This document shows positions 54,574 through 62,946 of a DNA stretch of 64,000 bases, piece by piece. The position numbers and the translations under genes are program-made. Position 1 is the first letter of the stretch. Every line of letters begins with the position of its first letter. The notes beneath the pieces are model-generated. The model did not search any database. It saw only the letters and a program-made list of their open reading frames with translations, and was not told where the DNA came from. Origin of the DNA: Niabella beijingensis (GTDB taxonomy: Bacteria; Bacteroidota; Bacteroidia; Chitinophagales; Chitinophagaceae). The stretch spans positions 2,976,001 to 3,040,000 of the forward strand of contig NZ_JAIQDI010000001.1 of NCBI RefSeq assembly GCF_020034665.1. The letters are read 5' to 3'.

Positions 54574-57500
54574 TTAAGGGATTGTTTTCTCTTTCGATGC
54601 ATCCGAGCGGTTCAGGAATTTGAGATCCGGATCCAGCACCACCCGCGTCGGCTTTTTTGTAAAAGGTAAGGTCGTATCAATACGGTTACGGGAGGGATAC
54701 AGCATCCGTTTTTCAGTATGGCCTCCGGCCAGATATATCAGTACATCAACGGGGTCATCAAAGGGAACGGTTTGGGCATTTCCCTTTCCATCCTCCAGAA
54801 ATTTGCGGGTAACTGCGCCCAGCTGCAGTGTGTATATATGACCGGCCGGTTGTTGTGCGGTCGCTTTTTCCAGTACCAGGTCATAGGTAACCACCTGGCG
54901 GAACCATTCGTTCAGTTTCGCGGTATCGGAAGGCCCCGCAACGGTATAAAGGGCCTCCAGCAGATCCGTGGAAACGGGCACCTGTTGGGGCCAGGCATGT
55001 TTCCTGTAAAAGCTTTTCAACGCCTGATTGATGCGTGTTTCACCCAGCAACAGATAAAGCTGATACATCACCACCATCCCCTTATCATAAGAAAGATAGG
55101 GTTGGGCCGGGTTCAGCCGGAACAGGGGCGGTTCATCAGCCTGGTTGCGGCTGCTGAGGTAAAGGTCTTTGTGTACTGCTACCCGGTCGGCAAGTACAGC
55201 GGGCCCATACGCCTTTTTATAGCACATCAGCTCTGTGTACATAGCAAGTGTTTCCGTCATCAGTGAACTGCCTTCCCGTTCATCCGGTGCAATGCCGCTA
55301 TTGCCCCACCAGGCATGTGCGGTTTCATGACTTACCATTTCATGAAGGATATCCCTGGCGGGATCCTTGTCGACAATATTGCTGTATCCGAAAGCTTCGT
55401 TGATGAACAAACTGCCCGGGTAGGCCGTTCCGGCAAAACCTTTGGTAAGCGCCGAGATCTCGATAAAGCGGGCTGTCGGGAACGGGTAGGGGCCAAAGCT
55501 GGATTCGCAATAGGCGATGCTCCGGCGCGCGGTCTGCATCAGGTGGTCAATGTTTCGGTGATGTTGCGGATCGTAATACACTTCAATCGAAGTGCTGCCC
55601 TGCCGTTGCTTTTTCACGGCATAACGGGCGGATGCTACTGCAAAACGGAAGGGCACCGGTGATGGCGTTTTGTAATGGTAGTAACTGCGGTCGCCGGTTT
55701 TCCATTGCCGCTGCAGTTCGCCAATGCTGATAGCGGTCTGGTTATTCCCCACCGATACTACGGTCTCGAAGTGAACGAAACCGGCATCCGTTTTCCGGGG
55801 CGACGACAACACCGGCAGTCTGCCGGCAGTATCCAGACCGTATTTTTTACGCTCCTGTTTTTCTTCAATTTCATTGCTGCTGTTGTATCCCGGAACCGGA
55901 AAATACCGGCTGATCCGGATAAAGCTTCCGTTCCGGACGATGGTATTGAACCCGGCTGCTTTTTTGAAGGGAGACCCCCGGTATTCAAAACAGAATAGAA
56001 AGGTAATGCTGTCGTTGGGCATCAGGGGCCGAGCCAGTTTAAATATATAGTAGCCATAGGTTGAATCGGATGTTATCAGTTTCCCGTTGCCGGTCTGCAA
56101 CCTGCTCCAGCTCATTTCCTTATCGCCGTAGATATAGAGGGTATCAATAGGAAGGGCAGTCTGATTCACCATCCGGTAATGTCCTCTGACCTTATAACCC
56201 AATGCTTCCGGGTAAAGATCAATACAGGAGCTCACGGCTGTGATCACGGGCTGCGGCCGGTCTGCAATAAACGCGTACTTTTTTTCATATGATGCTTGCC
56301 AATCGGTGAGGGCGTTCCGGGAAGGCGATGAGGTGTTGATAAAAAGCGTGCTGCCTGTATAAAGAGCTGTAAAGAAAAGAACGCCGGATGCACTCCACCA
56401 AACCAATGATCTTCTGCTGGCGCCAGCAGACCGGAGGGTAAAGGCAATTGTGATCAGGAAAAGCAGCAGGGTAACCGAAGACCAGTACAGCATGTTGTAA
56501 TGAAAGGCAGAAAGACCGCTGTCAAAACCATTCATTTCACTGTAGGCGCCCTGGAAAGAATTGGCAAAACGCAGCAGCGGATGGCGGAGGCCGATCATGG
56601 TTCCGATGCTGGTATGGGTAAGCAGCATCAGCGATCCTGCAAGAACAATACCGGTATATTTATTTTTCGTAAGTGCCTGTATGCAGATGATCAGCCCGGC
56701 ATTCAGGAATAAGGGCAGTCCGATAAGATAAAAAAGGGAGGCATACAGTGCCCAGTCAACGGAGGCATTGTGCTTTATGACTTGTATAATAAGTCCTGTG
56801 CCGATACCTGCCAGCAACAGCACCACCACCACAGGGGCCAGTGCTACCCATTTTGAAAACAGCATTACAGCCGGATGAACGGCCGTAGTGCTTTCCAGGG
56901 CATTAAACCGGGTCTGGCGGCTTCGCCAGAAGACCTCATTCCCGTAGAATACCAATACCATTAATGCCATCAACGGCAGGCCGGACAATATCCCTTCTGT
57001 GAGGATAGCAGTGGTGGCCAGGTGTTCCGGCAGCCGGCTGTTCCCGTTAATATTGCTGAATGTTTCGATGCTCATAAAACCTGCCCAGCCGGCAAGAAGC
57101 AGCCAGATGGGAATGCTTTTGAGGATATTGCTCCATTCGATGGAAACCAGGCTCCGGAGGCATTGCAGATCAAAACGCCAGGTGCCGGTACGGGTAGTGA
57201 TGGGCCGGTAAGAATGTTCCGGAGCAGCAGGTGACCGGCGTTGCTTTTTGATCCCGCCTGATAGTTGGGGTTGCAGGGCAAATCGTTTATAGGCAAAAAA
57301 AAGCAGCAGGCCCGATACGGTCATGTACAGCAGCCGGTTTATAAGCAGGCTGCCGCTTAGTTGCAGCAGTTGGGTATTGCGCTGGAGCGGACTCCAGTAA
57401 CGGGTTTGCTCCAGGAAGGCAGCAATGCCGAAAGGGTCTGTTAATGCAGCAATATGCATCGCCGTGGCCGGCACCGGCGTGCTGTTGGCAATGATGGGGG

Positions 57501-58080
57501 AGTTGGCATAAAATGATACACCCCAGTAAAGAAAATAGATCAGTACGCCCGATACATATACCAGCATCCGGCTGCGGGTAAATAAGCCGATGCTTACAGC
57601 AACCGCGGTACAAAAAAGGATATTGGGAAGCAGCAGGATGAAAAAGGGATGAAGGTACCGGAGGAGATGAATGGCATCGGTTTCACCGGGATACGCTCCG
57701 GGTACCAGGTGACCGGCCACCATACCTGCGATTAACAGCAGATAACAGGCCGCGCTTACAAGAAAAATACTGCTGAATCTGCTCCATACATAGGGGGCTT
57801 TGCGGATGGGTGTGGCATAAAGAATGGCATCAAAGCGGCTGTCCTTTTCGCGGAACAGGGTTTGTGCGGCCAGTATCGTGGTAGTGAAGATGCATAACAG
57901 GGACATGATCCCAACAACATAGTTCAATACATAAGTGCCGTTCCTGAAAGTGTTGGGAAAAGGAAAGCGGGCCACGGTGCCGGTAATAAATCCCAGCAAT
58001 ATAAAGAACAGCAGCAGGAGGTAAAATGACAGCCTTTGGCTGATGAACCGCCATTCGAATTGTAATAATTGCCGGAACAT
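54574..58080 (-). CDS. ABC permease fused to M1-family zinc aminopeptidase
   Basis: The protein has 1168 residues. Residues 1-620 contain two ABC-2-type membrane halves with roughly a dozen hydrophobic helices. Residues 640-1168 form an M1 peptidase-like domain. The zinc site is HETAHAWWGN (about residues 917-921) with the third ligand Glu 18 residues later in MTETLAMYTEL. The substrate motif GAMEN is replaced by KGFAGTAYPG, so specificity may differ. Helices first then peptidase places the enzyme outside the inner membrane. The partner ATPase starts 3 bases upstream in the operon. The substrate is unknown. Confidence 0.88.
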   Translation of the reverse strand: MFRQLLQFEWRFISQRLSFYLLLLFFILLGFITGTVARFPFPNTFRNGTYVLNYVVGIMSLLCIFTTTILAAQTLFREKDSRFDAILYATPIRKAPYVWSRFSSIFLVSAACYLLLIAGMVAGHLVPGAYPGETDAIHLLRYLHPFFILLLPNILFCTAVAVSIGLFTRSRMLVYVSGVLIYFLYWGVSFYANSPIIANSTPVPATAMHIAALTDPFGIAAFLEQTRYWSPLQRNTQLLQLSGSLLINRLLYMTVSGLLLFFAYKRFALQPQLSGGIKKQRRSPAAPEHSYRPITTRTGTWRFDLQCLRSLVSIEWSNILKSIPIWLLLAGWAGFMSIETFSNINGNSRLPEHLATTAILTEGILSGLPLMALMVLVFYGNEVFWRSRQTRFNALESTTAVHPAVMLFSKWVALAPVVVVLLLAGIGTGLIIQVIKHNASVDWALYASLFYLIGLPLFLNAGLIICIQALTKNKYTGIVLAGSLMLLTHTSIGTMIGLRHPLLRFANSFQGAYSEMNGFDSGLSAFHYNMLYWSSVTLLLFLITIAFTLRSAGASRRSLVWWSASGVLFFTALYTGSTLFINTSSPSRNALTDWQASYEKKYAFIADRPQPVITAVSSCIDLYPEALGYKVRGHYRMVNQTALPIDTLYIYGDKEMSWSRLQTGNGKLITSDSTYGYYIFKLARPLMPNDSITFLFCFEYRGSPFKKAAGFNTIVRNGSFIRISRYFPVPGYNSSNEIEEKQERKKYGLDTAGRLPVLSSPRKTDAGFVHFETVVSVGNNQTAISIGELQRQWKTGDRSYYHYKTPSPVPFRFAVASARYAVKKQRQGSTSIEVYYDPQHHRNIDHLMQTARRSIAYCESSFGPYPFPTARFIEISALTKGFAGTAYPGSLFINEAFGYSNIVDKDPARDILHEMVSHETAHAWWGNSGIAPDEREGSSLMTETLAMYTELMCYKKAYGPAVLADRVAVHKDLYLSSRNQADEPPLFRLNPAQPYLSYDKGMVVMYQLYLLLGETRINQALKSFYRKHAWPQQVPVSTDLLEALYTVAGPSDTAKLNEWFRQVVTYDLVLEKATAQQPAGHIYTLQLGAVTRKFLEDGKGNAQTVPFDDPVDVLIYLAGGHTEKRMLYPSRNRIDTTLPFTKKPTRVVLDPDLKFLNRSDASKEKTIP

Positions 58081-58083
58081 AAT

Positions 58084-58956
58084 TTATACAAGAGTTAATT
58101 GGGTGAAATAAACATCTTCCAGATCGGCCTGTTTGGGCGTAAAATCACCTCCGGGATCTTTTTCGGAATAGATCGTGATATGCAGCCTGCCGGCAATAAA
58201 ATGCGATGTGATGACCCGGTGGCTCTGCTGTTCCTGCTGCAGGTCTTTTTTATCGATCCGCTTTGACCATATCTTTCCATCGAGCGCCTTTATAAAATCA
58301 TCCGGTCTTCCGGCTGCGATGAGGGTACCGTTTTGAATGATGGCCATTTTTGTGCAGAGATTGCGTACATCTTCAACCAGATGTGTGGAGAGGAGCACGA
58401 TCACCTGTTCCCCGATCTCACTAAGCAGGTTATTGAAGCGGTTGCGCTCTTCCGGGTCCAGGCCCGCAGTAGGTTCATCAACGATGATCAGCTGGGGGTT
58501 GCCCAGTAATGCCTGTGCGATGCCAAAACGCTGGCGCATACCACCAGAGAAGCTGCTTACCGCCTTGTTTTTATGCGTGTAGAGGTTGGTCTTTTGCAGC
58601 AAGGCCAGTATCTGTTCTTTTCGCTCGTGGCGGTTGGTGATCCCCTTCAGAACAGCTAAATGGTCCAGCAGCCGGAGGGCCGATAGCCGGGGATACACAC
58701 CAAAATCCTGGGGAAGATAGCCCAGTTGCTTTTTGATGAGTACAGAACCCGGCGTAGCGATGTGGTCGTTAAAAATGATGCGCCCCTCGTCCGGCCGCTG
58801 AAGCCCGGCGATGGTGCGCATCAGGGAGGACTTTCCGGCGCCGTTAGGGCCCAGCAGGCCAAACATGCCATCGGATAATTCCAGCGAAATGCTGTTAAGG
58901 GCCTTCACCCCGCCGGGATAGGTTTTACTGAGTTGTTCAATGATGAGTCGGTTCAT
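58084..58956 (-). CDS. ABC transporter ATP-binding protein partnering the permease-peptidase
   Basis: The protein has 290 residues. Walker A is GPNGAGKSS (about 36-44), the signature is SFSGGMRQR, Walker B is LIIVDEPTAGLDPEER, and the H-loop is in LLSTHLVED. A C-terminal extension of about 80 residues follows the core (from NGTLIAAGRPDDF). It ends 3 bases before the permease-M1 gene and must energise it. A 77-base gap separates it from the XRE gene upstream. Confidence 0.93.
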   Translation of the reverse strand: MNRLIIEQLSKTYPGGVKALNSISLELSDGMFGLLGPNGAGKSSLMRTIAGLQRPDEGRIIFNDHIATPGSVLIKKQLGYLPQDFGVYPRLSALRLLDHLAVLKGITNRHERKEQILALLQKTNLYTHKNKAVSSFSGGMRQRFGIAQALLGNPQLIIVDEPTAGLDPEERNRFNNLLSEIGEQVIVLLSTHLVEDVRNLCTKMAIIQNGTLIAAGRPDDFIKALDGKIWSKRIDKKDLQQEQQSHRVITSHFIAGRLHITIYSEKDPGGDFTPKQADLEDVYFTQLTLV

Positions 58957-59975: not shown

Positions 59976-60695
59976 ATGAATATGGATACAAAGCCTGGTA
60001 AGAGCTCTTTCGGAATTCTCCGCAGTATTAAACGACTGATCTTTGAAGACGGAGATACAGGATACTCATTGCCTGAAAAAAATATACCCGCTCCGCCTGT
60101 GACAAAAGCACCGGACCCCGTAACTGTTATCACTCCAACCCCTGTTGCGCCAAAGGCGGAACCGGCAGGAGACCTGCAGGCTGAGGACCTCAAAGAGATG
60201 AAGTTGAAGGTACTGGACCTGCTTGAAAAGCTGAATGAGGACGGGCTTGATTTTTTTGAGGTCTGGAATGCCGCAGCAGAAATGGGTACTATTGATGCCG
60301 TTTCTATCAAAGCTGCATACACTTCACTTAAATATGTAGACAAATCACTCAGCAAAGATAAACTGCTGAGCAGCGGCCGGAACTATGCGGTGCGGATACA
60401 GGAGGTGATCGACCAGGATGTGGTGCAGAAAGAAAATCAGAAACAGGGGATACAAAGCGGTCTTGTACGGGAAAAACAATCCCTGCAAAAGGAGGTCACA
60501 GATCTGAATGCAAAGATCAGTGAACTGCAAAAACAGCTTGAAGAGAAAGAACAGGCCTATAAAAACCTGGATGGCAAATACGACAAGCAGCTGAAAGATA
60601 TCGAACAAAAAATTCATACCGGCAAAACGGCTGTAAAGGAAGTGGTGGGTGATATTGAAAAAGCAATTTCCATTATTGAACAAAACATAAACTAA
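59976..60695 (+). CDS. Unrecognised soluble coiled-coil protein (operon gene A)
   Basis: The protein has 239 residues and I do not recognise it. It has a basic N terminus (GILRSIKRLIFED), then a Pro-rich linker (about 38-65, PAPPVTKAPDPVTVITPTP). A helical domain (about 70-135, LKEMKLKVLDLLEKLNEDGLDF) and a long coiled coil (about 145-238, EKQSLQKEVTDLNAKISELQ and more) follow. It has no signal peptide or membrane helix. It ends 7 bases before gene B and is the first gene of a three-gene operon. It may tether to the membrane protein encoded next. Function unknown. Confidence 0.75.
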   Translation: MNMDTKPGKSSFGILRSIKRLIFEDGDTGYSLPEKNIPAPPVTKAPDPVTVITPTPVAPKAEPAGDLQAEDLKEMKLKVLDLLEKLNEDGLDFFEVWNAAAEMGTIDAVSIKAAYTSLKYVDKSLSKDKLLSSGRNYAVRIQEVIDQDVVQKENQKQGIQSGLVREKQSLQKEVTDLNAKISELQKQLEEKEQAYKNLDGKYDKQLKDIEQKIHTGKTAVKEVVGDIEKAISIIEQNIN

Positions 60696-60702
60696 AATTG
60701 AC

Positions 60703-61812
60703 ATGGCAGAAAAATCACAGGTCATAAATATTCCCGCAGAGATAAAAAGTCAGCTCCCGATTTTCCAGGTGCTGGGTGATAAGCTTCCCGCCCAGGTAAT
60801 AACACCTGAAGGAAAGAAGACCATCTCCACGATCTTTTTCTGGGCATTGGTGATCGGAGGAGCCTTTGCGTTTTTCAAATACCTGCCGGTACTGCTGGAG
60901 TATGCCCAAAAAAGCGTACTGCTGGTTATTTTCGGAATTGTGCTGGTAACATTGCTGCTGCTGGCTCCAAAGATCGTTTCCCTGCTGCACCGGCTGGGTA
61001 CCGTGCTGCTGTTTAAAGGCGAGAAAGAGATCATCCGGAAGAACCCGATAGAAACGCTGCAGTTGCTGGAACGGGATGCCAAGGATACACTTAAAAGGGT
61101 AAAAAATAAAATCGCCAATGTTGATGGCGTGCGCATCGATATGATCACCAGCGGTGAAAATGCACAAAAAACGGCGGAGGAAAAATATCAGTATGCCAAA
61201 CGGTTTACCGCGGAAGCGGCCAGCCTGGAGGAGAAAGCCAAACAGGCGGCGGGCACAGGAAACAATGAGAAATCCAATGAGCTGAACCGCGATGCCAAGG
61301 AAACCCGGACGAAAGCTTTTTTGCTGGGCAAGGAAGGCGAGGCAGATGAACAAAATGCCCGCAGCTATGCACAATATGCCAACCAGTTCAGCAAAGTGCT
61401 GGAAGTGCTGAAAGACAATGAGAGTGCGGCCCGCATTTATGTAAGCACCCTGAACAGCAGTATTTCCATTATTGCAAAAAAACTGGAGGCAACCCAGAAA
61501 ATGAAAAGTGCTACCGAAGGGCTGGCCGATGTGTTCAATATAAAAGACGGATGGGCATTCCAGGAGGCAATGAATGCCGCCACCGGCGCCATCAGCCAGA
61601 ACATTGCATCCATCCGTTCCAATCTCGACTTCCTGGATCAGAATAACAATATAACGGTTGGCGGTACGCCTTCGCAAAGCGAACTGGAAGCATTTATCAG
61701 GAAGGTGGATGAGCGCAACCTTAAAGTACTGAATGTAACTGAAATGGCTGATTCGAACTATGAATTGAAGCCGGAAGAAAAGGTCGACAAGGGATTTTCC
61801 CTGCTGGATTAA
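60703..61812 (+). CDS. Unrecognised membrane protein with long coiled coil (operon gene B)
   Basis: The protein has 369 residues. A 40-residue cytosolic lead is followed by two membrane helices (about 42-61 and 70-90) with a short loop, so both ends should be cytosolic. Residues 115-300 are almost entirely helical and charged (AKDTLKRVKNKIANVDGVR, then AEEKYQYAKRFTAEAASLEEKAKQ). The layout is reminiscent of PspA/ESCRT-III-like helices, but without a definite family match. Two spacings (7 bases from A, 26 to C) indicate one operon. Function unknown. Confidence 0.75.
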   Translation: MAEKSQVINIPAEIKSQLPIFQVLGDKLPAQVITPEGKKTISTIFFWALVIGGAFAFFKYLPVLLEYAQKSVLLVIFGIVLVTLLLLAPKIVSLLHRLGTVLLFKGEKEIIRKNPIETLQLLERDAKDTLKRVKNKIANVDGVRIDMITSGENAQKTAEEKYQYAKRFTAEAASLEEKAKQAAGTGNNEKSNELNRDAKETRTKAFLLGKEGEADEQNARSYAQYANQFSKVLEVLKDNESAARIYVSTLNSSISIIAKKLEATQKMKSATEGLADVFNIKDGWAFQEAMNAATGAISQNIASIRSNLDFLDQNNNITVGGTPSQSELEAFIRKVDERNLKVLNVTEMADSNYELKPEEKVDKGFSLLD

Positions 61813-61838
61813 TCAATCAACAAAACCACACATAAACT

Positions 61839-62855
61839 ATGGAACAAAGATCAACCTGGTCGCGTTTACGCTGGCCTGTAAAGGCGTTTATTATTGCGGT
61901 CCCTATCTTTCTGCTTGGCTACTGGGGATATAAAAGCGGCGTATTTAACAGTCATGATGATGTAAAAGCAACCACAACCGTTGAACCCGGGGGCGGCACT
62001 GAAGGCGGTAATCCTTCTGAAGGAAAAAAAGGGACTGCGGCATCCGGCAGAACGTTTAACTATGAACCGGAGAAGCCCGTAAACGGAGAATTAAAAGGTG
62101 TTGTTGAGGTAGGTGCCTCGGGATTCAATTCCTTTATCATTAATATGGACCAGGAAAAACGCTGGGAGATCGTTTCAAAAGATTTCGGACAGTCCTTTGC
62201 TTATGAAGGCATGGCCACCACTGAAGACATTCGTGCGGGTCTGAAAAAATACATTGGCGATATGTTTGATAAGGGCGTCCGCTCCAGGAATGTGCATTTT
62301 GTGATCAGCTCGGGCGCACAGAAAGAACCGAAAACAAAGATCATCGCTTCCGAACTGAAGAAAATGGGATATGTGGTGAATCTTGTAACCCCGGACCAGG
62401 AGGGAAAGCTGGCGCTGAAATCGGTACTACCCAATGCTTACCGTGACAACTCGTTTGTAGCGGACATTGGTTCCGGTAATACCAAGATCTCCTGGGCAGA
62501 TGCCGGCGATAATGTACAGGCTGTGGAAACCCCTGGTGCCAAGTATTACGAGAAAGGGCTGAAGGATGATGCAGTTTATGCTGAAGTAAAAACCGCTGCG
62601 GCAAAGATACCTACGGATAAAAGAGAGGTGTGTTTTATACTGGGCGGTGTGCCGTTTGAGCTGGCCAAAGAAATAAGGAACGGGGAAGAACGTTACACCG
62701 TTTTAAAGGCGCCGGAAGATTATAAATCGGATAAGGTAAAAACAAAAAGTGGTGTAAATATTTATAAAGCCATAAAGGATGCGACCAATTGCGACACCTT
62801 TGTTTTCGATTGGGATGCGAATTTCACCATTGGCTTTTTGTTGTCGCTGAAGTAG
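61839..62855 (+). CDS. Membrane-anchored protein with Ppx/GppA-like actin-type ATPase fold (operon gene C)
   Basis: The protein has 338 residues. The basic N terminus (RSTWSRLRWPVKAF) precedes one membrane helix (about 16-33), followed by a Gly/Glu-rich linker (40-80). The rest resembles half of the Ppx/GppA/ASKHA fold. Residues 88-100 (VVEVGASGFNSFI) correspond to the phosphate-1 loop. The block HFVISSGAQ and DQEGKLALKSVLP follow, and 207-217 (VADIGSGNTKI) matches the phosphate-2 loop DIGxGxT. The phosphate-1 Asp is replaced by Glu. Positive-inside rules place the domain outside the cytoplasm. Enzymatic activity is unknown. Confidence 0.7.
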   Translation: MEQRSTWSRLRWPVKAFIIAVPIFLLGYWGYKSGVFNSHDDVKATTTVEPGGGTEGGNPSEGKKGTAASGRTFNYEPEKPVNGELKGVVEVGASGFNSFIINMDQEKRWEIVSKDFGQSFAYEGMATTEDIRAGLKKYIGDMFDKGVRSRNVHFVISSGAQKEPKTKIIASELKKMGYVVNLVTPDQEGKLALKSVLPNAYRDNSFVADIGSGNTKISWADAGDNVQAVETPGAKYYEKGLKDDAVYAEVKTAAAKIPTDKREVCFILGGVPFELAKEIRNGEERYTVLKAPEDYKSDKVKTKSGVNIYKAIKDATNCDTFVFDWDANFTIGFLLSLK

Positions 62856-62889
62856 ATCTGCACAGCGGATCATTTGTTTCGCAATAGAG

Positions 62890-62946
62890 AAGGCTGTATC
62901 AAAAGTTTTGGAAATGTGAGATCCGCTTTTGATACAGCCTTTTTCA
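62890..62946 (+). terminator. Terminator of the three-gene operon
   Basis: A perfect 16-base inverted repeat (AAGGCTGTATCAAAAG, 62890-62905, with 62926-62941) has a 20-base loop and is followed by TTTTC. The reverse strand also has an A/T-tract, so it may act for the minus-strand gene at 62959 too. Confidence 0.8.

Follow-up and report, generated by a model that had tools for sequence, protein, structure and literature searches.

A conserved three-gene operon of Bacteroidota pairs a probable PspA-like membrane protein with a Ppx/GppA-fold protein that is most likely periplasmic

Introduction

PspA/IM30 is a peripheral protein that carries an N-terminal amphipathic helix instead of transmembrane (TM) segments. 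TM-bearing relatives are also described: in the main text of PMC11237479, Ravi et al. (2024) report operons that combine PspA and TM-bearing Snf7 homologues with an AAA+ ATPase, an ABC ATPase, a permease and a PBPB-OmpA protein, and propose that membrane remodelling is linked to solute transport. Here we describe a three-gene operon of Niabella beijingensis (contig NZ_JAIQDI010000001.1 of assembly GCF_020034665.1) in which a soluble coiled-coil protein (A) and a probable membrane-anchored, distant PspA/IM30-like protein (B) are encoded together with a membrane-anchored protein whose predicted model has the Ppx/GppA-type actin (ASKHA) fold (C). The operon lies in a stretch of 64,000 nucleotides (positions 2,976,001 to 3,040,000, hereafter the window, within which coordinates are given) and had been picked out in a first-pass annotation made from the sequence alone.

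Results

Genes A (59976-60695), B (60703-61812) and C (61839-62855) are read from the forward strand as open reading frames (ORFs) of 239, 369 and 338 amino acids. By ORF coordinates they are separated by 7 bases (A-B) and 26 bases (B-C), the layout that the first-pass annotation had given. A B-based search of species genomes yielded 40 loci, one in an unclassified Bacteroidetes metagenome-assembled genome (MAG) and the others in Niabella, Chitinophaga, Pedobacter and Sphingobacterium. The order A-B-C was kept in 39 of these 40 loci, indicating that the arrangement is not due to chance; the exception was the MAG locus L082, where B stands without an adjoining A or C. Across the conserved loci the gaps ranged from 3 to 24 bases (A-B) and from 25 to 181 bases (B-C), and the flanking genes varied from genus to genus. 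Identity to the window proteins was 65-95% for B (n=40; 93-95% in four Niabella loci), 67-90% for C (n=39) and 41-68% for A (n=39). None of the three window proteins scored above a curated cut-off in Pfam or NCBIfam, and the host genome (G000) contains one B and one C.

The order A-B-C was also found, with a divergent B, in two f30 genomes (L150, L151). Among 198 genomes sampled from the order, C was detected in 22 at E<1e-20 (26 at E<=0.001), and 18 of these 22 also contain B, compared with 42 of the remaining 176 genomes (Fisher P 1.6e-7, uncorrected for shared ancestry). C adjoined B in three of the 18 genomes with both (G000, G156 and G188, the last with one gene between) and lay away from B in 15. 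A-B-C is thus an old arrangement, from which C is nevertheless separable. Thus the single conserved unit envisaged at first holds for gene order across four genera, whereas the outcome named beforehand as refuting it, separate genes in most genomes, is what was found for C in the order sample (15 of the 18).

The A-B pair has a wider distribution. Using a combined profile of B and its distant homologues (B2), B was found in 60 of the 198 order genomes (E<=0.001) and in 10 of 296 genomes sampled from the phylum (E<=1e-5). Leaving out the window and the G120 contig, the order sample gave 91 loci, and B was called in 90 of them (none in L254). A member of the A profile was among the three nearest upstream genes in 71 of the 90, C was near B in two, and a protein with substrate-binding and OmpA similarity (S; labelled by phmmer, with at least one OmpA-only match, L142, included) was encoded by one of the three same-strand genes that follow B in 33. 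Genes for both an ABC permease and an ABC ATPase follow in 19 of these 33 loci; in L236 and L242 the genes after S encode BPD_transp_1 and ABC_tran proteins, and the S protein of L139 matches OmpA (5.6e-22) and NMT1 (2.6e-11). S was present in 38 of the 198 order genomes, 34 of which also have B, and the arrangement A-B-S recurs in two f29 genomes (L359, L360). At E<=1e-20, S was not detected in the host genome, where C holds the position of S beside B. In f18 genomes with B (n=36), 11 have C and 15 a strong S without overlap (hypergeometric P 6e-4, uncorrected for ancestry). Adding weak S matches gives an overlap of two (P 0.024), and among f12 genomes with B (n=13) S is present in three of the four with C; we do not claim a general exclusion between C and S. 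Two further relatives of B (P0137, P0168) came from a eukaryote protein set and are likely to represent bacterial contamination.

Protein A consists of a proline-rich stretch, a small helical region and a C-terminal coiled coil. None of its segments exceeds the hydrophobicity threshold applied, in agreement with its initial description as a soluble protein with a Pro-rich linker, and only weak coiled-coil matches in Pfam and NCBIfam. B, by contrast with the peripheral PspA/IM30 type, has two TM segments, which hydropathy places at residues 40-58 (60820-60876) and 71-89 (60913-60969). They are followed by two long helices at residues 115-184 and 188-278 (61045-61536), located by an AlphaFold2 model and alignment, so that the expected two membrane helices and helical domain are both recovered. 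Blocks of ten residues in the helix region have a predicted local distance difference test score (pLDDT) of 74-90, with 48 for the last block. The helices begin at an NP motif, where most B2 homologues have DP. The B2 proteins (~340 amino acids, N-terminal SFWxRPEG) are 13-18% identical to B, with which they share the pair of TM segments and the helical domain.

Although every match remained below the Pfam cut-off, B is probably a membrane-anchored, distant PspA/IM30-like protein. Two B homologues match PF04012 at 3.5e-7 and 9.8e-7 (30.5 and 29.0 bits by hmmscan; cut-off 33.9), with PspA_IM30 as their top Pfam match, and the better-scoring one reached 33.1 bits in the genome search. PF04012 was matched by 22 of 50 B2-type proteins (E<=0.1, best 6e-6), the same 50 giving DUF948 in 25 and Prominin in 20, and four of the 120 relatives listed are named phage shock protein A by JGI. 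A profile of 74 diverse B sequences compared with 27 PspA gave 82% (E 1.1e-5) in an alignment that is in register from the DP motif, and its reversed controls gave 0.3-16%. B2 alone gave 4-7% with canonical PspA (local alignment) and 67-68% with a second PspA set (L206-L211). When the PspA set was assembled, L184, L191 and L192 were removed by hand and L185, L188 and L193 by filter, and L183 and L205 gave no ORF. These homologue matches and the profile comparison lend moderate support to the PspA-like flavour first noted for B. Classing B as an ordinary PspA member was set aside because no match reaches the cut-off; the window B itself has no PspA match in the Pfam search, and the B profile found no solved structure below E 0.059, the top rows being mainly SNAP-25 coiled coils. 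It is alternatively conceivable that B is not PspA/ESCRT-III-like and that its helices form a receptor-type hairpin through which C or S would signal to A by a change of conformation. We regard this as unlikely without being negligible, since it leaves aside both the rank of PspA_IM30 for the two homologues and the in-register profile alignment with its weaker reversed controls.

The two-domain ASKHA core of C spans residues 84-338 (62088-62852), as defined by profile, alignment and model. C matches Ppx-GppA (PF02541) at E 0.0042 (17 bits; curated cut-off 27), its profile retrieves a PDB exopolyphosphatase at E 5.2e-5, and its predicted model has the two-domain fold of the Ppx/GppA type. Thus the ASKHA fold suggested in the first-pass annotation, which had named a different fold as the refuting outcome, was borne out. 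The model is close to PPX/GppA and to NTPDases, the latter with lower similarity; matches from a viral fold library were confined to distant ASKHA and RNase-H-like proteins, headed by an ecto-NTPDase at E 3.1e-6. The core motifs are E188, D209-x-G-S-G-N-T-K216 and G269-G270, and E188, D209 and the GG pair are invariant in 26 of 26 aligned C sequences. E188 aligns with the EQEG of Aquifex PPX, a position that we take to be catalytic in Ppx/GppA enzymes. These invariant residues and the nearby enzyme folds, as well as the 15 genomes in which C lies away from B, would be expected if C were an exported phosphohydrolase (an ecto-exopolyphosphatase or apyrase) that scavenges phosphate and is merely positioned or stabilised by A and B. 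We consider this improbable, because C has K216 (26/26) and E90 (24/26) where Aquifex PPX has Glu and Asp, the C anchor is also found on S, and the linkage of A with B is constant in four genera.

C has one TM segment, residues 14-30 (61878-61928; hydropathy and charge), as anticipated for a single-pass protein, and its N-terminal side is the more positive. The same bias was seen in 32 of 39 C proteins, and the reverse in none. Outside the four genera C mostly starts with a KLTPFSKILI-like sequence. A hidden Markov model (HMM) of 15 such anchors was run on the N-terminal ends of 2,023 ORFs from the fetched loci (62 labelled C and 44 labelled S). All its matches at E<=1e-3 were to these two proteins (17 C, 28 S), and the best-scoring ORF of any other kind followed at 0.053; the S matches are independent, whereas the C matches are not because the training anchors came from the same loci. 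A second profile, built from eight C anchors and six S anchors, gave 16 matches at E<=1e-5 in 99 genomes. Of these, 15 are inside C or S genes, and the other is in an unexplained 70-residue frame with no known head (G093:C52:29090-29185, E 2.1e-9). The anchor common to C and S, combined with the OmpA and solute-binding domains of S, supports a periplasmic location for the C domain, which we consider most likely. The well-studied Ppx/GppA enzymes are cytosolic, and on that precedent C could read ppGpp or polyphosphate inside the cell. The charge bias of the TM segment, the presence of the anchor on OmpA-domain proteins and the lipoprotein-like or signal-peptide-like starts (by eye) of C relatives make such a cytosolic domain highly improbable; intracellular reading of (p)ppGpp or polyphosphate was rejected on topology, and the cytosolic nucleotide signal that the initial proposal would allow is unlikely.

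Two C relatives in G299 begin with lipoprotein-type signals (by eye) and lie within 6 kb of one another (L353:12261-14166). The second of these ORFs starts 55 bases after that of a 295-amino-acid membrane protein, presumably resembling a small mechanosensitive channel. Distant C relatives in L046, L047, L355, L357 and L358 have signal-peptide-like starts (by eye), and those in L046 and L047 adjoin TM coiled-coil proteins; this suggests that exported proteins of the Ppx/GppA fold form a broader group. At another locus (L029:7275-12972, genome G195) C and A occur without B near genes for protein-kinase, PP2C and VWA domains, the make-up outlined for the TerY-P triad (PMC11090510). C was found in two more of 58 other relatives of G195, and none of these partner genes was noticed by eye around their C; a TerY-P-like link of C was seen in L029 only.

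Downstream of the operon, at approximately 62887-62944 on the forward strand, RNAfold predicts an intrinsic terminator, made up of a long hairpin and then TTTTT (-29.6 kcal/mol for the segment 62885-62945), which agrees with the strong terminator marked there in the first reading; a consensus scanner limited to loops of 3-8 bases did not report it. Elsewhere in the window, the reverse strand (54574-58956) encodes a membrane protein of 1168 amino acids that contains a peptidase-like HETAH stretch and has an ABC ATPase gene upstream, by appearance a permease/M1-peptidase fusion.

Discussion

We tentatively propose, with somewhat less than even confidence, that A, B and C form an inner-membrane module in which a membrane-fixed PspA-like protein, its adaptor and a ligand-reading periplasmic protein that controls assembly work together. 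The two-helix hairpin would fix B in the inner membrane, and its cytoplasmic PspA/IM30 (ESCRT-III-like) hairpin would probably self-assemble on the inner membrane face with A as a soluble coiled-coil adaptor. In the periplasm, the Ppx/GppA-fold domain of C would bind, and perhaps hydrolyse, a phosphorylated ligand, for which polyphosphate, a nucleotide or an envelope phosphate ester are candidates. Through its TM anchor, which we infer to contact B, the ligand state of C could then change the assembly of B and A, such that the membrane is stabilised or remodelled. Related modules would combine this A-B base with another periplasmic head, S, on the same kind of anchor and often with an ABC transporter. 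If true, this would link an envelope ligand directly to a membrane scaffold, with a swappable partner on a constant anchor, and it touches on the question of how bacterial PspA/ESCRT-III-like proteins learn of events beyond the inner membrane. A further consequence would be a periplasmic actin-fold domain of the Ppx/GppA type in several Bacteroidota.

Several observations weigh against this proposal. Besides the 15 genomes in which C lies away from B, no B was found in four of the 22 strong-C genomes (G016, G028, G116, G195), and C stands beside A without B in G195 (L029) and G394 (L354). The anchors of most C proteins in the four genera, including the window, have diverged (SRLRWP) and were missed by the anchor HMM, and the host genome has no match to the C/S anchor profile. 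Catalysis by C may have been lost, judging from the sequence, because the enzymes have Glu where C has K216. Neither B nor C has a Pfam match over the curated cut-off. The 74-sequence B profile gave 27% with the 21 canonical PspA compared with 72% for the other six, the window's B subfamily by itself gave at most 0.7%, and mixed B and B2 profiles gave 20-67% (64-67% at the top) with reversed controls of up to 36%. The whole-B AlphaFold2 model is poor (pLDDT 68.0, predicted template modelling score 0.43); with this weak model Foldseek ranked VIPP1 first at E 7.7e-3 and returned nothing at E<=1e-3, and VIA ranked generic coiled-coil hairpins first.

A broader and more doubtful extension is a family of receptors that span the envelope, with A-B as their inner half: an ESCRT-III-like scaffold would be controlled from the periplasm by exchangeable heads on one common anchor, either C, as an actin-fold remodelling sensor, or S, as a solute-binding/peptidoglycan-binding protein with an ABC transporter. 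That the operon is a mobile defence system is hardly credible: the patchy occurrence of B in the phylum sample and the VWA, PP2C and kinase genes beside C-A in L029 would fit, but PADLOC had no match to B or C and four weak ones to A (best 2.3e-5), all within the coiled coil, B was not found in the plasmid collection nor C in the phage collection in the two pairings searched, and B is highly conserved (65-95% identity, 40 loci).

B and C can each be set beside known systems. Like PspA/Vipp1 (IM30) of the ESCRT-III superfamily, B has a long helical hairpin that starts at a DP/NP motif and weak Pfam and profile similarity; it differs in its two N-terminal TM helices and in scoring below the Pfam cut-off. 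C differs from the Ppx/GppA phosphatases (H. pylori 6pc1, Aquifex 1t6c) in being membrane-anchored and predicted to be periplasmic, and in having Lys for Glu after the GxGxT motif and Glu for Asp in the first motif, and it is structurally less similar to NTPDase/CD39 ecto-apyrases (Legionella NTPDase1) than to PPX/GppA. A literature search without Ppx/GppA as a written term turned up no description of A-B-C, and one touching on periplasmic Ppx/GppA-type actin-fold domains turned up no such role. Ppx and exopolyphosphatase have no matches in the main text of PMC11237479 (supplements apart). The A-B-S loci fit the TM-Snf7/PspA, PBPB-OmpA and ABC operons of that text, whereas in the window no S or ABC gene lies next to B, where C is encoded instead; no AAA+ ATPase was noticed beside the operon, although no dedicated search was made. 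The early view that no named system has this composition therefore stands in part: operons of TM PspA/Snf7, solute-binding/OmpA and ABC proteins, and hence the A-B-S type, are already in print, and what is new relative to the main text of PMC11237479 is a variant with a predicted periplasmic Ppx/GppA-fold protein, whose family elsewhere has an S-type anchor.
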